Positions 11,072 to 27,761 of a stretch of 27,872 bases of DNA are shown piece after piece. Position 1 is the first letter of the stretch, and each line of letters begins with the position of its first letter. Origin of the DNA: a virus; IMG/VR virus record IMGVR_UViG_3300021197_000896, positions 1-27,872 of that record. One strand, given 5' to 3'. The notes under the pieces were generated by a model that saw only the letters and a program-made list of their open reading frames with translations, was not told where the DNA came from and ran no database searches. The position numbers were made by a program, and so were the translations under genes.

Positions 11072-12267
11072 TGGGTATCTTCTATAAAGAATCAAATGAA
11101 GAAGGGTCGAGAGATCTATTCAATAAGTCTGTTATCTACAAAGGAGAAATGTTAGAGTTTTCTGAAACATACTCCAATGTTGTAGATTTTAACTTTGGAG
11201 AAAAATATTTATTTGGCAGAGTAAACCGAAACTACATTAGCATACAACCCAATGAAATACTGACTACTTTTACTCGTGTAAACAATCAAAGAAGCAGGGA
11301 TTCTGTAAAAGTATTTAATTTTGTGGCAGATGGATTTCAGGAACTATCGAGACAATTTAAAAAAGCAGCACAAATAGGCAAAATAGATAAAAACGATGAC
11401 TATCTTACAAACCTAATAGCATATGACGGCTACAAGAGTGTCGACAGTCTCTACGGCATCTATATTTCAGACATGGTGTCAGCTATAAGGGGCAAACTCA
11501 CAGATGACAATATTATTATAAAAGACTTTGATGGTTTCGTCCAGTATCTTTTGAGTTTTATCCATGCAGCAGGGCAAACTTTCCCTATTACCAAGACCGG
11601 TTTTGTTCGTAGTCGTCACTGTTCTCCGCTTATTAGCGGCTTGACGATCGAGATTGCAGATCTCACATACACCAACGATCAGCAGAAGATTAATCTGTTT
11701 AAGAACAGTAGAAATTTTGAATATTACCTTAATGCTTGCAACAGCTTTGGTTTCATGGTAGACTCTTCCATCCCTTGGAGGATTACTCTTGATATTGGGA
11801 GTGATGATGTGGTTGAAGGTCTGCTAAAACCTCGTGGATTCACTTCCACTGATTCACTTTTGCTTGTTGGTTATAAACAAACACATATATCTTATTATAA
11901 TTCTTTTAGATCTCAATTGCTAGGAATATACAATCAAGTTGTAAGATCAAATCATATTGAATATGATGATTGTAATGGAAAAACTAAAATTATAAACAGA
12001 ACAGAATATACATTAGATAAAATCAATAATATTTATAATGAAGATTATTTTATTAAATTATATTGTATGTTTAGATTTATAGAAGAAGAGAACAAACATT
12101 CAAAAGCAGAACAGGATCATAATATAACAGACTTCATAAATCTGTCAAGGACGAGCGGTGTAAATTATGCGATAGGATCCTTTGAAAGATTTATCTCGCA
12201 ACCATTTGACTATCGCGGCTCGCTGAGTTATCTTATAAGAGAACAAGAGAAACGAGAGGATGTATGA
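11071..12267 (+). CDS. Virion structural protein of unknown role with AT-rich 3' part
   Basis: A 398-aa protein that I do not recognise beyond a general likeness to structural proteins of marine myoviruses. A notable segment is FPITKTGFVRSRHCSPLISGLTIEIADLTY near residues 171-200. The first ~270 residues look globular and mixed alpha/beta. The 3' part from about 11880 to 12110 is strikingly AT-rich (about 19% G+C over 11881-12060, against roughly 40% nearby) and encodes Tyr/Asn/Ile-rich sequence. Its start shares a base with the stop of the preceding gene, and its stop overlaps the DNA polymerase start by four bases, so one mRNA links virion and replication genes here. Confidence 0.6.
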   Translation: MGIFYKESNEEGSRDLFNKSVIYKGEMLEFSETYSNVVDFNFGEKYLFGRVNRNYISIQPNEILTTFTRVNNQRSRDSVKVFNFVADGFQELSRQFKKAAQIGKIDKNDDYLTNLIAYDGYKSVDSLYGIYISDMVSAIRGKLTDDNIIIKDFDGFVQYLLSFIHAAGQTFPITKTGFVRSRHCSPLISGLTIEIADLTYTNDQQKINLFKNSRNFEYYLNACNSFGFMVDSSIPWRITLDIGSDDVVEGLLKPRGFTSTDSLLLVGYKQTHISYYNSFRSQLLGIYNQVVRSNHIEYDDCNGKTKIINRTEYTLDKINNIYNEDYFIKLYCMFRFIEEENKHSKAEQDHNITDFINLSRTSGVNYAIGSFERFISQPFDYRGSLSYLIREQEKREDV

Positions 12268-13454
12268 TCTTCCAAACACTGGACGACAAAACAGAGTGTG
12301 TCGGTGTCTACGTTGATGGTAAACTACACTTCGACCATATCCCCGATGGACTAACAAGAACATGGAAATACACAGGATCCGTTCAAGATCCCGATGTTGA
12401 GTTTGCTTGGTTATATTGCGGAGGTAAAAAATTAGAAGAAGTATGCCCAGAAGATTTAAAAGCGGAACTTACCGAGCTTCAAAAGACCTTCAAAGCCTAC
12501 CTTCTGTCACTTTCAATAGGCAAGATCAACCTACACGACAATTGTTTTTTCGATCTCGTGCCAAGTGACTTCTTGCTTCAGTTTTGTGAGGTCAGAAACA
12601 AGATCACAGAGCACGTTTTTAATAACCACTCTCGTCCTGAAAACTACGTTCACCTTGATCGTACTTACAAGCTTCTCCATAAGATCAAATATCAGAAGTT
12701 GAATATCAATGTGGATGGGTGCCGTCACCTAATGACCACCACAAGCGACCGAGAAGACATCAGAATGCTTGTAAAAAACAAGTCCCACTATGTGGACTAC
12801 AATCTTTTTGGAACCGTCACAGGGCGCCTCGCGACCAAGAGAGTAAGCAATCCTATTCTCACAATGAAGTCAAGATTTCGTTCTCTAATCAAGCCAACAA
12901 ATGACTGGCTTGTGTCGTTTGATTATAACGGAGCAGAGGTAAGAACCTTCTTAGCACTCTCGGGTATTGAACAGCCAGAAGAAGACATTCACGAATGGAA
13001 TATGAAACACCTTTACGGAGATCACCCTATTGATCGGGAAGAAGCAAAGGTTAGATTTTTCTCTTCGTTCTATAATCACAACGACAATTCTCTCAAAAAT
13101 TCTGTTTACAGTAGGGATCGGGTTACTGGTGATTATTTTTATGGGAATCGCATCGTAACGCCGCTTAGGCGGACTATCAAAGTAGATGAGAAAAAGGCTT
13201 TCAGCTACATTATCCAAAGTACGACAGCAGATCTTACAATCGACAGGGCTATTGAGCTTGATAAGGTGCTTGAGGGCACAAAATCAAAAGTGGCTTTCAT
13301 TGTACACGATGAAGTTGTGCTTGACATTCACGAAGAAGACAGATATAGGATACCAGAGTTAAAGGAGGTGTTCCAAAACAACAAACTTGGATCGTTTAGA
13401 GTAAATGTAAAGGCAGGCAAAAGTTACGGAGACCTGAAGGAGTTGAAGTTGTGA
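12264..13454 (+). CDS. Compact family A DNA polymerase without exonuclease domain
   Basis: At 396 aa this is roughly half the size of T7 or E. coli Pol I-type enzymes. The polymerase motifs are intact: TGRLA at 186-190; motif A DYNGAEVRTF at 220-229, with catalytic D220 and E225; motif B with R258, K262, F266 and Y270 in the exact R-x3-K-x3-F-x3-Y spacing (the usual YG is YN); QSTTADL at 318-324; and motif C HDE at 348-350. Phe at the 266 position predicts discrimination against dideoxynucleotides. No 3'-5' exonuclease motifs are seen in the N-terminal ~130 residues, and distances between motifs are short, implying reduced fingers. It overlaps the upstream structural gene by ATGA and the downstream gene by GTGA. 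It is likely the replicative polymerase, with proofreading absent or supplied in trans. Confidence 0.88.
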   Translation: MIFQTLDDKTECVGVYVDGKLHFDHIPDGLTRTWKYTGSVQDPDVEFAWLYCGGKKLEEVCPEDLKAELTELQKTFKAYLLSLSIGKINLHDNCFFDLVPSDFLLQFCEVRNKITEHVFNNHSRPENYVHLDRTYKLLHKIKYQKLNINVDGCRHLMTTTSDREDIRMLVKNKSHYVDYNLFGTVTGRLATKRVSNPILTMKSRFRSLIKPTNDWLVSFDYNGAEVRTFLALSGIEQPEEDIHEWNMKHLYGDHPIDREEAKVRFFSSFYNHNDNSLKNSVYSRDRVTGDYFYGNRIVTPLRRTIKVDEKKAFSYIIQSTTADLTIDRAIELDKVLEGTKSKVAFIVHDEVVLDIHEEDRYRIPELKEVFQNNKLGSFRVNVKAGKSYGDLKELKL

Positions 13455-17487: not shown

Positions 17488-17515
17488 CTATTTACTACCG
17501 AGGTGTAGTAAATGG
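17488..17515 (+). promoter_or_regulatory. Hairpin sequestering the start codon, Shine-Dalgarno in the loop
   Basis: CTATTTACTAC (17488-17498) pairs with GTAGTAAATGG (17505-17515), 11 bp with one T-G wobble, around the loop CGAGGT. The loop holds most of the Shine-Dalgarno GAGGTG (17500-17505), while the ATG (17512-17514) lies wholly in the stem. This predicts translational control of the next gene. Confidence 0.65.
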
Positions 17516-18135
17516 AAGAACTCTACGAAATTGATGAAGACTTTCTTGGCGAAGAAAACAAGACAGAAAAAGAAGGCGGCATTTGCGCCGCTGGCGAGGC
17601 AGCAGCAAAGCGCAAGGGCTATAAGTGGCCATCTGCCTATGCCTCTATGTACGGAAGTCGCTGGTGCAAGGACAAGGATTTTGATCGTGGCAAGAAAAAG
17701 AACGAATCTATTGATGAAGGCGGCGAACTTAAAAAGTGGCGCGATGAAAACTGGGTTCAGTCTGATGGCACACCTTGTGGAGAAAAAAAGGCACAATCCG
17801 CACCAAGACGCTGCAAACCAAAGGCAAAGTGGGCAACGATGTCTGATGCCGAGAAGAAAGCGGACAACGCTAAAAAGAAAGAAGGTGGTCGTAAAGGCAA
17901 GCAGTTTGTATCAGCAACCAAAAAAGGCAAAGTCAAGGGCTATAGCGAACATCTAGAAAAAATCATTAGAGAAGAGTATAAAGCTGTCATGGATGAGAGG
18001 AAAAAGAAATGCTCACCTTGTGGGCGCAGCGGTGGAGAAAAAAGATCAAAATATCCTTCGTGCAGACCTACACCCGGCGCTTGCGGTGAGAGAGGCAAGT
18101 GGGGCAAGAAATCAAAATCTGGAAAAGAGGGATGA
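17512..18135 (+). CDS. Basic cysteine-rich protein with DUF5872-like modules and a KIIREEYK peptide
   Basis: A 207-aa very basic protein (Lys/Arg/Gly-rich) with eight cysteines at 25, 52, 89, 101, 167, 170, 184 and 191. The first module (22-55, ICAAGEAAAKRKGY..PSAYASMYGSRWC) and the second (74-140, KKWRDENWV..GTPCG, then ..RRCKPKAKW) resemble short cysteine-paired modules found in marine phage and large-virus proteins, the second like DUF5872. A linker peptide LEKIIREEYK (148-157) leads to a third Cys module with KYPSCRPTPGAC. Function is unknown; the composition suggests nucleic-acid binding, possibly a packaged internal protein. It begins in a hairpin and ends by ATGA overlap with the next gene. 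Confidence 0.72.
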   Translation: MEELYEIDEDFLGEENKTEKEGGICAAGEAAAKRKGYKWPSAYASMYGSRWCKDKDFDRGKKKNESIDEGGELKKWRDENWVQSDGTPCGEKKAQSAPRRCKPKAKWATMSDAEKKADNAKKKEGGRKGKQFVSATKKGKVKGYSEHLEKIIREEYKAVMDERKKKCSPCGRSGGEKRSKYPSCRPTPGACGERGKWGKKSKSGKEG

Positions 18136-20765
18136 ATCTTAAAAAGATCATAGCGGAAGAATACAAGCTATTTATCGAAGGTAAGACAGAGGACTTAATT
18201 CAAAAGTTTCCTGAACTGCAACCTGCTTATGACGCAGGTATCAAAAACGTTCAGTATCTTAATTGGATTCGCAAACGTCGTGCGGGAGAGCCGGTTGAAG
18301 ATATTGTAGGAGTTGTCATTGCTTTTGACAAACAAAAGCAGAGATTAAAAGCAAAAGGAAAGTCTCCTGATATTTATGCATACAAAACACCCGCTATTCT
18401 ACGACAAACAATAGAAGAACTTGGTGCCTCCAAATCCAGTGAACAGCGTCGTATTAAAGATGAGGAAATAACTTATCTCGGAACCTTTGGTGACTGGATT
18501 GTGGCGATGCCGCATACCACACAAGCTTCTTGCAAGCTTGGCGCAGGCACCACTTGGTGTACTGCCGCGACAAAAACTCAAAACCTTTTTCTTTCCTATG
18601 TTGCGAGAGACGAAGAAAATATCATATTATATTATTTGATTAAAAAAGCAACCGATCCTCGTGAAGATCCAACCGCAAAGATTAGTGTTGGCTTTGTTAA
18701 TGGAGAGCCATATTTGGAAGGGTCTCACGGTCACATAACTGTTGATGCTGCTAACAAGGGATACACAGCGAGTGATCTACAGTCAGTTTTGGGTGGTCAA
18801 TATGAGCCCATAATGGGTGCAATGAAAGAACATGCTGCCAAGGTTGCTGGAAAACACCCCGCAAAACAACAATTTTTAGATATAGCTCAGTCCGACGATC
18901 CAAGCAAATTTGATAATGCCGTTAGGGGCATGGAGGGATTGGAACTAGAAGATTTTATGAAACGTATCTTGTCTTCAAATCCAAGCGCACAAGTTTTAGA
19001 TAGAATGTATGAAATTACGGATCAGAGAATTGAAGCAAAGTTTCAAATGTATGGCGAGGAAGGTAACTGGGCTATACAACAGAGTTTTTTTAGAGACATA
19101 ATAAATAGCCCTGCCCTTTCTGATGCCACCTTTATTAAAGCCTTAGAGAAATTTGGCAAGTTTAGATCCTTTAGCCTTGCGATGGCTTCAAGAGTATCTT
19201 CTGGAGAGGCATCAGGGTTTCAAATTAAAAAATATCTTGATTTTCTTGAAAAAAGCGGCAGACTCCATTACTACGATTATAGTGAATTCATTAAAAATAC
19301 AGCAGATTTAAAAACCACATCACCAGAAGTCTTAAACTTTATTTATAAAAACTTCTCTGATGAATCAGAAGATTGGGGGGTTGATAATGATCCCATTTTG
19401 GTTAATGTCGGCGCCAACCCGAACACCCCTTTCGAAACTTTAAATAAAATATTGAGAATTGAGCCTGATGGTGAATCAGAAGATAGACCACATGAGGGAG
19501 TAGTTTACAATAAAGTATTTTCAAACGAAAATTTACAAAATTGGTTTAAAGAAAACGAAGAGGAGAATAAATTAAAATTTATTAAAGCTATGAGGGGTGC
19601 CCCATCTGAAATTGATGAGATGCGTTACCCTCTCATAAAAAAACTTGCTGAAGATCCGTCTAGCGATGTGCGAGAAGCAGTGGCTGGACTTATTCTTGAT
19701 GAACTTTCTGAATATACTAAAGACTGGTATGGACCCGGCGGCGTTTTGGAGAAACTTATTTTTGATAAAGACTACGGTGTTGGCTATAAGGCGATAAAAA
19801 GAGTAAAAGATGATTTAAACTTTCTAAATTATATCATTAAAAAGTCCCTACAAAATCCAGAAAAATATAATTTTAAGCCTATTTTTGGTCTTTTAATAAA
19901 AGAAAAAAATCCAAGAACCCCTCTTCCACCAGAGGTTATAAGACAAATATATAACGCTGATTTTTATAAATTATGGAATATATCTGAGGATGATCCTGAT
20001 AAGCAAGAACTTATTAACTCTGTCCGCGCGATACTAGAGACATACCTTGTAAACTTTTCCACCACACCGATTGATGTTCTTGAAAAGATATTTATAAGAA
20101 ATATGCAAAAAGAAACAAAATTTACAAAATCTATTATTGAAGATCTTGCGTTCGAGTGGTCGCACAAGTTGCATAAAGCCCGAGCACCCTATTCTCAAGG
20201 CGGCAGGATTCTGATGCCCGAACCGGAAGTTACGAAGTTGCGGCAGAAAATTTTTGATGGTATCAAAGACAAAGAAGAATTTCAGGATGAAGCTGAAGAG
20301 TTGAAAAACCACATGAATAGAGTTGCCCGCCGCAAGAGAGCTAAAGAGCGACAGGCTGTTATGGATCGCCGCAAAGCAGACGGCGGGACGGTCTGGTACG
20401 AAGACGGTAGCAGAAAGAAAAATTCTAAGACTAATTATAACGAGGGAAATATCATGGATTTTACAGAAGACTATGTTAAAAAGATAATTAAAGAAGAATA
20501 TAAAGCCATTATACGTGAGAAGAAAAAGAAAGCCTGTAAGCCTACCAAGGGCAAGCGCTTTGCAAAACGCGTAGATGGTAAATGTCGCTCTTATGGACAA
20601 TCAGGTCAAGCTAAGAGTGGCGGTGATCGAATAAGACCCGGCACAGCCAAGGGTGATGCTTACTGCGCACGATCCGCAAAGATCAAAAAATGTAAGAATC
20701 CACCCTGCGCCAATGCGCTATCCAGAAAGAAGTGGAAGTGCCGTGGTTCCAAGTCAATGAAATAG
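18132..20765 (+). CDS. Large multidomain protein: KIIAEEYK N-terminus, TWCT domain, LRV/HEAT-like repeats, basic Cys-rich C-terminus
   Basis: 877 aa. The start is the ATG at 18132 overlapping the previous stop (ATGA); an in-frame ATG at 18099 would overlap more deeply without a ribosome site. Residues 3-12 read LKKIIAEEYK. About 100-245 is a domain centred on GTTWCTAATKTQN at 139-151, followed by a LYYLIKK strand and TAKISVGF; such a W-C-T pattern reminds me of PcfJ-like domains of polyvalent phage proteins, but this is weak. About 400-640 is repetitive and helical, with LRV/HEAT-like units (VNVGANPNTPFETLNKIL; LAEDPSSDVREAVAGL). Residues 775-877 begin with a second VKKIIKEEYK and form a basic Cys-rich domain with GDAYCARSAKIKKC and LSRKKWKCRG. 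An enzyme activity cannot be assigned. Confidence 0.68.
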   Translation: MNLKKIIAEEYKLFIEGKTEDLIQKFPELQPAYDAGIKNVQYLNWIRKRRAGEPVEDIVGVVIAFDKQKQRLKAKGKSPDIYAYKTPAILRQTIEELGASKSSEQRRIKDEEITYLGTFGDWIVAMPHTTQASCKLGAGTTWCTAATKTQNLFLSYVARDEENIILYYLIKKATDPREDPTAKISVGFVNGEPYLEGSHGHITVDAANKGYTASDLQSVLGGQYEPIMGAMKEHAAKVAGKHPAKQQFLDIAQSDDPSKFDNAVRGMEGLELEDFMKRILSSNPSAQVLDRMYEITDQRIEAKFQMYGEEGNWAIQQSFFRDIINSPALSDATFIKALEKFGKFRSFSLAMASRVSSGEASGFQIKKYLDFLEKSGRLHYYDYSEFIKNTADLKTTSPEVLNFIYKNFSDESEDWGVDNDPILVNVGANPNTPFETLNKILRIEPDGESEDRPHEGVVYNKVFSNENLQNWFKENEEENKLKFIKAMRGAPSEIDEMRYPLIKKLAEDPSSDVREAVAGLILDELSEYTKDWYGPGGVLEKLIFDKDYGVGYKAIKRVKDDLNFLNYIIKKSLQNPEKYNFKPIFGLLIKEKNPRTPLPPEVIRQIYNADFYKLWNISEDDPDKQELINSVRAILETYLVNFSTTPIDVLEKIFIRNMQKETKFTKSIIEDLAFEWSHKLHKARAPYSQGGRILMPEPEVTKLRQKIFDGIKDKEEFQDEAEELKNHMNRVARRKRAKERQAVMDRRKADGGTVWYEDGSRKKNSKTNYNEGNIMDFTEDYVKKIIKEEYKAIIREKKKKACKPTKGKRFAKRVDGKCRSYGQSGQAKSGGDRIRPGTAKGDAYCARSAKIKKCKNPPCANALSRKKWKCRGSKSMK
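20454..20765 (+). CDS. Possible separately translated 103-aa basic Cys-rich protein (internal start)
   Basis: Inside the large gene and in the same frame, CGAGGG (20441-20446) stands seven bases before an ATG at 20454, an ideal ribosome binding site. The product would begin MDFTEDYVKKIIKEEYK and contain KGKRFAKRVDGKCRSYGQSG, the DRIRPGTAKGDAYCARS segment and a C-terminal LSRKKWKCRG. Stand-alone proteins with YCARS and LSRKKWKC motifs are, as I recall, frequent in marine phages. It may be an originally separate gene whose upstream stop was lost, giving both a fusion and a free form. Five cysteines and a strong positive charge suggest nucleic-acid binding. Confidence 0.5.
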   Translation: MDFTEDYVKKIIKEEYKAIIREKKKKACKPTKGKRFAKRVDGKCRSYGQSGQAKSGGDRIRPGTAKGDAYCARSAKIKKCKNPPCANALSRKKWKCRGSKSMK

Positions 20766-26446: not shown

Positions 26447-26860
26447 ATGAGCAAGTTTAAAGTCCACGATCTAGTCTATCTTAACCTTCCTGCGGCTGAT
26501 CAAGGAGATCACGTTGATGGTTTTATTGCTGATGTTATAGAGCCGGGAAAATATTTGGTCTGGTGGTTTGAAAAATGTAAATCCTGGGTGGAAACTGATC
26601 AATTTCTTGAACCAAAAGAGCCTAATCGTAAATTCAAAAAGGGTGACTATGTCGTCAATGAGGGTATGCCGCATGAAGGCGGTTTTGGATTTGTTGAATA
26701 TGCTTATCCTCAAGGCTGGTATTTGATTCGCCCTATTACCGGAGGTCGCGAGGACCTTCGTGAATCCGGCAAATACCTTTGGTTTTATAGGCAGGCAAGA
26801 CCTGACTCGGGAAGATACTGGACATTACACGAAAAAAAGAAAGAGGAGAACAAAGAATGA
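26447..26860 (+). CDS. Protein with two tandem SH3/KOW-like barrels
   Basis: 137 aa. Residues 4-55 (KVHDLVYL, ADVIEPGKYLVWWFE, DQFLEPKE) and 62-110 (KKGDYVV, GFGFVEYAYPQGWYLIRPI, DLRESGKY) each follow the pattern of a small five-strand barrel: an entry strand with a GD/HD turn, a Gly then V/I strand, and a W/Y strand. This is like KOW or hypothetical phage SH3 proteins. The C-terminus is Lys/Glu-rich (EKKKEENKE), partly encoded by the shared junction module. Such barrels bind RNA, DNA or protein; no specific function can be assigned. Confidence 0.6.
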   Translation: MSKFKVHDLVYLNLPAADQGDHVDGFIADVIEPGKYLVWWFEKCKSWVETDQFLEPKEPNRKFKKGDYVVNEGMPHEGGFGFVEYAYPQGWYLIRPITGGREDLRESGKYLWFYRQARPDSGRYWTLHEKKKEENKE

Positions 26861-27081
26861 AAGTGGGTGATAAGGTTCAGTATTGTGGCTATGACACTCT
26901 CGGCGCAACAGGCGAGATCATAAGAGAAAAAGAAAAAACTCTTTACTATAGTAAGTGGGAACGCGAAGGTGACGATAGGTATTGTGTGTGTTATCTTGTA
27001 AGATACACAATACCAAACGGCAAGACTATCAACAATGTTGCGCGACCAGAAGACCTAAAACTATTGGAGAACGAAGAATGA
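26857..27081 (+). CDS. Small SH3/KOW-like protein ending in LENEE
   Basis: 74 aa, starting MKVGDKVQYCGY, with a GEII strand, a long YCVCYLVRYTIPNGK hairpin and RPEDLKLLENEE at the end. It matches the barrel pattern of its neighbours at 26447 and 27555, so the three may be diverged paralogs. Start and stop both lie in copies of the junction module. Function is unknown. Confidence 0.65.
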   Translation: MKVGDKVQYCGYDTLGATGEIIREKEKTLYYSKWEREGDDRYCVCYLVRYTIPNGKTINNVARPEDLKLLENEE

Positions 27082-27335
27082 AACTTGAACAATTGCTTGC
27101 TATATTTTCACTGACACTGTACTTACTATCTTTTTTAGCGTCTTTCGGGTTTTTGGCATACCTGCTTTACATGGTATTTGTGCTCAACCTCACTGAACAA
27201 GCGCAAATCTTGATAGGTTTGCTTGTCGCCAATAAGCTATTCGAAGAATTCGCTAATGCAATCATCAAAACTCTGAAAGAGGCTAAACAGTCTCGTAAAA
27301 AATCAGATGTTAAACCACTGGAGAACGAAGAATGA
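27078..27335 (+). CDS. Small membrane protein, candidate holin
   Basis: 85 aa from the ATG at 27078, which overlaps the previous stop; a longer frame from 26982 is rejected because it lacks the junction ribosome site. Residues 5-38 are strongly hydrophobic (one long or two tight spans, LLAIFSLTLYLLSFLASFGFL and following), then comes an amphipathic helix with EQAQILIGLLVANKLF near 41-56, and a basic tail (KEAKQSRKKSDVK). Hydrophobic N-terminus with a charged C-terminus is holin-like. There is no sequence-specific evidence, and the endolysin is about 1.5 kb upstream. Confidence 0.65.
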   Translation: MKLEQLLAIFSLTLYLLSFLASFGFLAYLLYMVFVLNLTEQAQILIGLLVANKLFEEFANAIIKTLKEAKQSRKKSDVKPLENEE

Positions 27336-27568
27336 TGAAGTACCAAAAAACTATTCAGTGGTACGTTAAGTTTGATACACGAATAGCTTTAATCACAAAC
27401 CACTACCCTTCTAAAACACATTATTGGGAAATAAAAACTCGCACCCTAGATTTAGGATGGGGAGATAATTGGGAGTGGACAACTCTTGAAGAGGGAGAAG
27501 AAAAGACACTTGCCGCAGCTAAACGAGCTATCAAAAAAGCAAGGAGAACGAAGAATGAAAGTCGGTGA
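27332..27568 (+). CDS. 78-aa hypothetical protein
   Basis: Starts at ATG 27332 in the junction module (a second ATG follows at once). The sequence is aromatic-rich: IQWYVKFDTRIAL, THYWEIKTRTLDLGWGDNWEWTTLEEGEE. It ends in a helix with LAAAKRAIKKARRTK. This mixed beta-beta-alpha layout is common in small phage regulators, but I cannot name a family. Unlike its neighbours it does not stop in the following module: its frame runs through it (RRTKNESR) and stops at 27568, 14 bases into the next gene. Confidence 0.65.
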   Translation: MMKYQKTIQWYVKFDTRIALITNHYPSKTHYWEIKTRTLDLGWGDNWEWTTLEEGEEKTLAAAKRAIKKARRTKNESR

Positions 27569-27761
27569 TAAAGTTCGTCTTGCTCATTTCCACGGCTCTA
27601 CCGGAGATCAAATCTTGGCTGAAAGCGGAGCCGCAGGAGTAATCAAGAGCATTGAAGAAGAACCTGAACCAAATGTTCTTACACGATGTGTAGAAGTTCA
27701 GTGGAACGACGGCATCAGTTGGCACTTTCGGCATAGACTTATATTGGAGAACGAAGAATGA
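27555..27761 (+). CDS. Small SH3/KOW-like protein ending in LENEE
   Basis: 68 aa from the ATG at 27555 in the junction module; an upstream in-frame ATG at 27486 has no ribosome site. It begins MKVGDKVRLAHF, very like the MKVGDKVQYCGY of the protein at 26857, followed by AAGVIKSIEEE, an RCVEVQWNDGISWHF hairpin and RLILENEE. The KVGDKV...GxI...VxW spacing supports a small barrel. Probably a paralog of its neighbours; function unknown. Confidence 0.65.
   Translation: MKVGDKVRLAHFHGSTGDQILAESGAAGVIKSIEEEPEPNVLTRCVEVQWNDGISWHFRHRLILENEE

Follow-up and report, generated by a model that had tools for sequence, protein, structure and literature searches.

Bacteriophage T4 injects a few internal proteins, which block the restriction enzymes of its host. 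Capsid-targeting sequences (CTSs) have been described as what is conserved among internal proteins that are otherwise diverse (PMC9026906, PMC3012670), and the account in PMC12373910 has the ip genes of T-even phages discovered by means of an N-terminal signal. In the giant phages SPN3US and phiKZ, as described in PMC5694885, a protease related to gp21 of T4 removes N-terminal peptides from head proteins, one of these peptides being identical in two paralogues. Here we examine a 27,872-base stretch of viral DNA (hereafter the window), which is the whole of the IMG/VR virus record IMGVR_UViG_3300021197_000896. Two adjacent genes of the window, encoding proteins of 207 and 877 amino acids (aa), carry three copies of a short peptide whose core recurs as an N-terminal tag on many unrelated small proteins of uncultured T4-like phages. 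On sequence grounds we consider it rather probable, though well short of certain, that this tag is a capsid-targeting sequence of a class not described before, which a gp21-like protease would cut off.

A shared peptide and its wider family

The initial annotation of this DNA had placed three peptides of the form (L/V)(E/K)KIIxEEYK in the two genes, and six-frame translation of the window bears it out. LEKIIREEYK forms residues 148-157 of the 207-aa protein (17953-17982), while LKKIIAEEYK and VKKIIKEEYK form residues 3-12 (18138-18167) and 782-791 (20475-20504) of the 877-aa protein. Each of the three agrees with LKKIIKEEYK in at least 8 of 10 positions, whereas no other 10-mer of the window agrees in more than 6, and KIIxEEYK would be expected 2.4e-5 times across the 1,084 residues of the two proteins, far below the number seen. 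Since the DNA of the three copies varies at silent positions, it is the peptide and not the DNA that is conserved. The pattern KKIIxEEYK was found in 17 stretches. Protein starts account for some of these (L019 and L022, together with L010 provided that translation begins at its second ATG) and the sister protein for others, the remaining ones lying inside unrelated proteins.

The window peptides have the core LxxIIxEE in common with a wider tag, MKITKxQLKQIIKEEL, that stands at the N-terminus of many unrelated small proteins. A DNA pattern for M-K-I-T-x3-L-x2-I-I-x-E-E was met in at least 120 stretches of viral contigs. In the 80 listed loci that we read, MKIT occurs 119 times, and because 103 of these occurrences have no in-frame ATG upstream, we take the tag to be the start of the protein. 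The 106 tagged proteins that run to a stop codon have a median length of about 105 aa. Among 84,980 bacterial and archaeal genomes the pattern yielded 16 stretches only, several of them on the same contigs. Nine MKIT tags apiece are present in the stretches viewed (L228, L230, L232, L234 and L236) of a 305 kb contig binned as Methylococcaceae and a 101 kb contig binned as Halobacteriovorax; both may be phage contigs.

When we turned to 22 contigs of 62-289 kb, each chosen for at least one MKIT copy, the pattern was present 65 times and a reversed control not once. A hidden Markov model (HMM) built from 46 tags matched 29 times in G023, 26 in G028, 12 in G018, 11 in G021, six to eight times in six more contigs, three times in G003 and once each in G002, G006 and G007. 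Two cultured phages, Flavobacterium phage immuto and Microcystis phage Mel-JY01, gave two and one weak matches respectively, and there was no match in T4, S-RSM4, R11Z, PA5oct and three small phages, nor in 19 random large contigs. We assign the window copies to this family because they share its core, because the sister contig G002 matches the model and because G031 combines both forms, bearing MKIT tags together with a window-like tagged gene for the WCTA domain described below.

Similarity among N-termini was also apparent when no tag pattern was imposed. Within G003, 12 pairs of N-termini scored at least 40, against none for mid-protein and one for C-terminal segments. The corresponding counts were 11 (partly signal peptides), 1 and 1 in immuto and 7, 1 and 3 in G031, and Mel-JY01 showed no N-terminal excess (5, 1 and 13). 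A position-specific scoring matrix derived from seven seeds outside G003 found five N-terminal matches in G003, compared with 0.2 in shuffles. Known families are rare behind the tag: for 83 of the 84 tagged proteins that are complete and have 85 aa or more, the comparison with Pfam gave one match and that with PHROGs three. Searching cultured phages by tblastn with the 25-aa MKIT tag gave no match, and we did not find the tag described in the open-licence literature of PubMed Central. Scans were also started from the 207-aa protein, from UvsX and from the WCTA pair; their outcome varied with the choice of peptides, and the last of them gave near-identical sisters only.

Cleavage-like sites, further labels and the prohead protease

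The motif (L/I/V/M)xE falls within residues 16-32 in 91 of 115 distinct tagged N-termini, whereas shuffled sequences gave a mean of 48.6 and a maximum of 63, and the two following windows of residues contained it in 23 of 109 and 26 of 103 cases. Its glutamate is at position 21 or 22 in 60 sequences, 34 being expected if the columns were independent. In alignment, the capsid protein propeptides of five relatives end at LKE-A, LRE-S, VVE-S, VSE-A and ISE-A (in T4, the gp23 propeptide ends at FLTE-A), and since these ends show L, I and V before xE, the protease of these phages probably accepts all three.

Tag-like N-termini are concentrated around the protease gene. Of the 60 genes lying within two genes of it in 15 loci, 8 have such a start, compared with 3 among the 220 genes elsewhere in these loci (Fisher p 2.8e-4), and a stricter definition of the tag gives 6 of 60 near the protease against 1 of 876 in neutral loci. 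Among relatives for which head genes are available, G031 is the nearest, its UvsX being 86% identical to that of the window; there the protease is flanked by a MNKSDLEKILLEEIETVINEE gene on one side and, across a single untagged gene, by a MKVIMERWDRYVLEE gene on the other. The position beside protease gene 21 is occupied in T4 by genes 67 and 68. As a separate observation, very basic genes of 75-82 aa are found near the prohead protease in L214 (3147-3395), L218 (2895-3143) and L240 (22183-22410), and the one at this place in Mel-JY01 is annotated as RpsU, ribosomal protein S21.

A second label resembles the scaffold. The scaffold proteins of these phages have C-termini of the form R(M/W)xxLAG(I/L), with YWKKLAGIK in G026 and a scaffold that is cut off in G038; such ends can be seen, for instance, in L080 (2776-4149), L085 (7905-9179) and L250-L264. 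Over 2,192 locus proteins, counted with the loci from cultured phages and bacterial genomes set aside, the motif occurs 28 times, 24 of them C-terminal and three within the first 30 residues. Five of the C-terminal LAGI proteins were not taken as scaffolds, among them protease neighbours in G030, G022 and G039. At the N-terminus, two immuto proteins bear RMQ(K/F)LAGIITES, and RMQKLAGIQINE stands directly behind KKIILEEYK in L019 and L022; tblastn with the 29-aa RMQKLAGI tag recovered four immuto records only from cultured phages. A label that targets proteins to the core would be expected to look like this, as a copy of the scaffold end placed at the start of other proteins with an ITE site behind it. 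The MKIT tag and a LAGI C-terminus never occur on one protein among the 106 full-length MKIT-tagged proteins.

The WCTA domain, which follows the first tag of the 877-aa protein, was sought by its own motif and thus independently of the tag. At least 120 stretches of viral contigs contain it, and the 79 that were read hold 76 distinct WCTA proteins, 70 of them with an uncut N-terminus. The motif (L/I/V/M/F)xE lies in residues 4-25 of 61 of these 70, compared with 15, 26 and 22 in the next three windows and 36.5 (maximum 48) in shuffles. The N-terminal peptides themselves vary by lineage, being MRAREFLIEY-like, ENWRKHLNEE-like, or of the types GYTEFLNES or NYRDFLSLNES, and KIIAEELKLFLEG-like in the window lineage. 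Some of them resemble T4 CTSs, ipIII starting with MKTYQEFIAEA and ipI with MKTFKEFTST.

Unrelated neighbours in the WCTA loci carry the same N-terminal label as the WCTA protein. L301 has five ENWRKFLxE-like starts as well as KIIxEE-like starts (five by eye, two by pattern count), there are six ENWNKFLxE-like starts in L271, the ENWRKFLxE-like and KIIxEE-like types are represented by four starts each in L344, and in L507 a MRAREFISEN gene adjoins a WCTA gene that starts with MRAIEFLIEY. The MRAREFISEN gene (L507 1-591) is kinase-like in appearance. Counted with patterns that were written after some loci had been viewed, ENWRKF-type starts occur in 24 of 767 genes in WCTA loci against 2 of 876 in neutral loci (p 1e-6), and KIIxEE-type starts 9 times against once (p 0.006); T4-like starts were not significantly enriched (4 against 1, p 0.15). 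In the jumbo Salicola phage SCTP-2 (hit H25), seven places match the WCTA domain, which looks like a local expansion.

Organization of the two genes and of the window

The window is from a T4-like myovirus. It encodes a tail module (sheath, tube, hub, tape measure and wedge) and a replication module with a polymerase fragment, a single-stranded DNA-binding protein, UvsX, an exonuclease, a DnaB-type helicase, ribonucleotide reductase and ThyX. The 207-aa and 877-aa genes sit between the exonuclease and the helicase, that is, inside the replication module and not beside a protease. Because its UvsX reaches only 30% identity with the top cultured match, that of Mel-JY01, the lineage looks uncultured; the UvsX of the sister locus L025 is 98% identical. 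Genes were called as the longest frames from ATG, GTG or TTG, and the features of the two genes (ORF, open reading frame; pI, isoelectric point) are as follows.

17512-18135, + strand: 207-aa gene, several small Cys modules in series and an internal tag (ORF; PHROG matches; alignment with sisters and immuto gp084)
17512-17556, + strand: N-terminal peptide MEELYEIDEDFLGEE with several (L/I)xE (E6, E9, E14); MEELYEFDEDSLNEE in sisters
17581-17706, + strand: PSAY module (phrog_27331, residues 24-65, E 1.8e-13)
17725-17925, + strand: WRDENW Cys module (phrog_14910, residues 72-138, E 5.9e-8)
17953-17982, + strand: internal tag LEKIIREEYK, then AVMDE; LLQIIKEEYQAVLSE and LRQIIQEEYQAVVSE at the equivalent place in sisters
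17998-18132, + strand: C-terminal basic Cys module CGRxxGEKRSKYPSCRPTP (pI 10.3, 4 Cys; conserved in immuto gp084)
18132-20765, + strand: 877-aa gene made of tag, WCTA domain, helical repeats, tag and Cys module (ORF)
18138-18167, + strand: N-terminal tag LKKIIAEEYK (helix 2-25 in the AlphaFold2 model)
18189-18911, + strand: WCTA domain, residues 20-260 (phrog_28193; PA5oct EST35_0205)
18849-20471, + strand: helical HEAT-like repeats, residues 240-780 (AlphaFold2 model, partly of low confidence; weak HEAT matches)
20475-20504, + strand: internal tag VKKIIKEEYK, then AIIRE (helix 779-799 in the model; IRQVIKEEYEALLDE at the equivalent place in L318)
20520-20762, + strand: C-terminal basic Cys module of 81 aa (pI 10.6, 6 Cys)

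The 207-aa gene is a mosaic. Its PSAY and WRDENW modules are adjoining free genes in L027, and the WRDENW module is free-standing in L028 as well, while in L025 and G001 other modules precede the tag and the tag itself is retained. Comparison of window positions 17512-18135 with L025 3486-4037 showed that close sisters, with UvsX proteins 98% identical, differ in this gene by whole Cys modules, from which we conclude that modules are exchanged around the tag. The N-terminal peptide MEELYEIDEDFLGEE is possibly a second N-terminal tag, to judge by its xE sites. In immuto, KNV73_gp084 consists of the tag AYIENIIKEILSE, a PSAY module, a second tag-like helix and a CGRxxGEKRSKYPxCRPTP module. The head cluster of this phage is T4-like and includes an annotated prohead protease, and the phage can be grown, its host being Flavobacterium sp. 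LMO8; therefore the idea of a capsid-targeting tag can be tested there.

We place the start of the 877-aa gene at ATG 18132, which overlaps the stop codon of the 207-aa gene, although the longest ORF starts from GTG 18099 and encodes 888 aa. A fold search of the PDB with the model of the protein gave weak helical-repeat matches only (best E 0.037). Among viral models, the second-best fold match (E 4e-7) was EST35_0205 of PA5oct, which has 31% identity to the WCTA domain over about 120 residues (about 140 aligned columns) and whose record annotates it as a structural protein found by electrospray ionization tandem mass spectrometry (MS). The 81-aa Cys module is 74-78% identical to free-standing proteins of two Vibrio phages, and phages of Vibrio and Roseobacter encode it as a small protein of its own that bears no tag. 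In L030 the 877-aa protein is replaced by one of 166 aa that starts with MILNKTKLENLVREVLEE and ends in the same Cys module; L318 has the WCTA motif twice and L331 is built as the window.

The last modules of these proteins are preceded by an xE site followed by a run of basic residues (AIIRE-KKKK, ALLDE-KKKK, AVLDE-KKKK, AVLAE-KKK and AVMDE-RKKK), and we predict that the C-terminal Cys modules of both the 207-aa and the 877-aa proteins would be released by cutting there. The tagged domains had been characterized at first as basic and Cys-rich, which fits the two C-terminal segments (45 aa behind AVMDE, 81 aa behind AIIRE) and does not fit residues 1-781 of the 877-aa protein (pI 5.8, 2 Cys).

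Two further features were seen elsewhere in the window. Only about 100 residues of the 396-aa ORF at 12264-13454 match the end of a DNA polymerase family, and this ORF adjoins an unrecognized one of 287 aa, which suggests that the polymerase is in pieces or diverged. At 26857-27761, three consecutive small genes in overlapping frames encode proteins that all end in LENEE.

Proposed function of the tag and comparison with described systems

If the tag is a capsid-targeting sequence, it would form a short amphipathic helix around the LxxIIxEE core, in most cases at the N-terminus, bind the prohead core or shell and carry its protein into the head before DNA packaging. A gp21-like protease would then remove the tag where it ends in an (L/I/V/M)xE site. 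Cutting at the internal tags of the window lineage could release small basic Cys-rich modules from precursors, and the cargo might finally be delivered to the host, although delivery is the least supported link of the reading first proposed. The targeting part of that proposal is strengthened by the position of tags beside the protease, the xE site at the tag end, the lineage-specific tags on the WCTA domain and the MS-annotated homologue.

Several observations nevertheless weigh against this reading. In the window itself the tag HMM gives no match as good as E 0.05, and two of the three copies are internal, only one being N-terminal, while T4 CTSs are not internal. In most contigs the HMM matches lie far from the head genes. 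Of 84 MKIT-tagged proteins, 58 are acidic in the part that follows the tag and 20 have a pI above 8 there (median pI 4.9), so that the basic character first ascribed to tagged proteins holds for the two small window modules and not for the MKIT family, and we dropped basic charge as a hallmark of the tag. EST35_0205 starts with MKLFEVFTLYEDK, which is no KIIxEE tag, and its MS support is an annotation in the record. The statistics for tag-associated xE, for WCTA-associated xE and for label types ignore the kinship between sequences. Finally, a gp21-like protease, which the initial annotation had proposed to look for as a check, does occur in relatives (G003 and G031), and the S77 (gp21-like) family scored above the Pfam cut-off in 15 of the 22 large contigs that bear the tag and in 16 of the 36 large ones with the WCTA domain; however, 9 of the 19 contigs in a random set of large ones, selected through an arbitrary 14-mer, have one too. 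Since random contigs have it about as often, its presence is no evidence, and we no longer count it as support. A PHROGs scan named no S77 protease among the 20 ORFs of the window, which is a fragment and was given no dedicated S77 search.

More tentatively, we suggest an extension of the capsid-targeting reading, in which several interchangeable labels (LxxIIxEE, ENWRKFLxE, MRxxEFLIEY and the scaffold-copying RMQxLAGIxxE) would load tens of different proteins per virion of uncultured T4-like phages. Some of the cargo would be made in precursor form, and cutting of its internal tags within the head would liberate small Cys-rich proteins of basic charge. Were this extension true, the tags would reveal the set of proteins delivered by phages that have never been grown. 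More generally, if the tag is for uncultured T4-like phages what the N-terminal signal was for the ip genes, a motif search would yield tens of head-packaged candidates per genome, nearly all of unknown family, and the scaffold sequence would be tied to cargo loading; as a head label, the tag could help to identify the proteins that bacteria receive from these viruses.

It is also conceivable, if unlikely, that the tagged proteins are prohead core or assembly proteins like gp67 and gp68 of T4, which would join the scaffold, be chopped up in maturation and mostly leave the head, with no delivery to the host. Tag-like genes do adjoin the protease, where T4 has genes 67 and 68, and MKIT-tagged proteins are mostly small and acidic; since T4 gp67 is acidic, such cargo suits core proteins better than T4 internal proteins, and some tagged proteins may be scaffold-like and never delivered. 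A role in the core accords poorly, however, with up to 29 matches per contig, mostly away from the head cluster and with very diverse cargo, with a WCTA homologue that is annotated in mature virions, and with window modules that are basic and Cys-rich.

We find it improbable that the tag is a docking helix for a machine other than the head, such as baseplate or tail assembly, a replication complex or a host factor. The location of the window genes among replication genes would agree with such a role, the tag by itself names no partner and the presence of S77 proteases is uninformative; yet the clustering beside the protease in head loci, the xE site, the scaffold-like second tag and the MS-annotated virion homologue all point to the head. 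Even less credible is a generic amphipathic linker or dimerizing helix spread by recombination between small genes: modules are indeed swapped around the tag between close sisters and the tag is predicted to be helical, but its side chains are invariant on unrelated N-termini while silent sites vary, and it is restricted to one phage group. Chance or the composition of these K- and E-rich proteins hardly deserves consideration, as far fewer matches or none came from shuffles, from random contigs, from mid-protein stretches and with the pattern reversed.

Taking the tag as a capsid-targeting sequence, one of its closest counterparts is the T4 CTS, with which it shares the nature of a short peptide common to unrelated phage proteins and an (L/I)xE site; an N-terminal position is seen in most MKIT occurrences but in one of the three window copies. 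It differs in sequence, having the LxxIIxEE core (compared by eye with ipIII and ipI; no HMM match in T4). The tag also matches tens of times in a single contig, has copies inside window proteins and precedes mostly acidic cargo. Going by their description, the propeptides of the giant phages SPN3US and phiKZ share a peptide between paralogues, whereas here the sharing is between unrelated proteins. The genes for gp67 and gp68 lie beside gene 21, a place matched by 8 tag-like genes in the 15 loci and not by the window genes, and encode small proteins, acidic in the case of gp67, but no shared tag was seen in T4, and the tagged genes described here are many and mostly elsewhere. EST35_0205 of PA5oct has the WCTA domain in common with the 877-aa protein, but starts with MKLFEVFTLYEDK instead of a KIIxEE tag and is devoid of the Cys module. 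On the capsid-targeting reading, which explains the observations best, the tag would work like a T4 CTS without being one by sequence.

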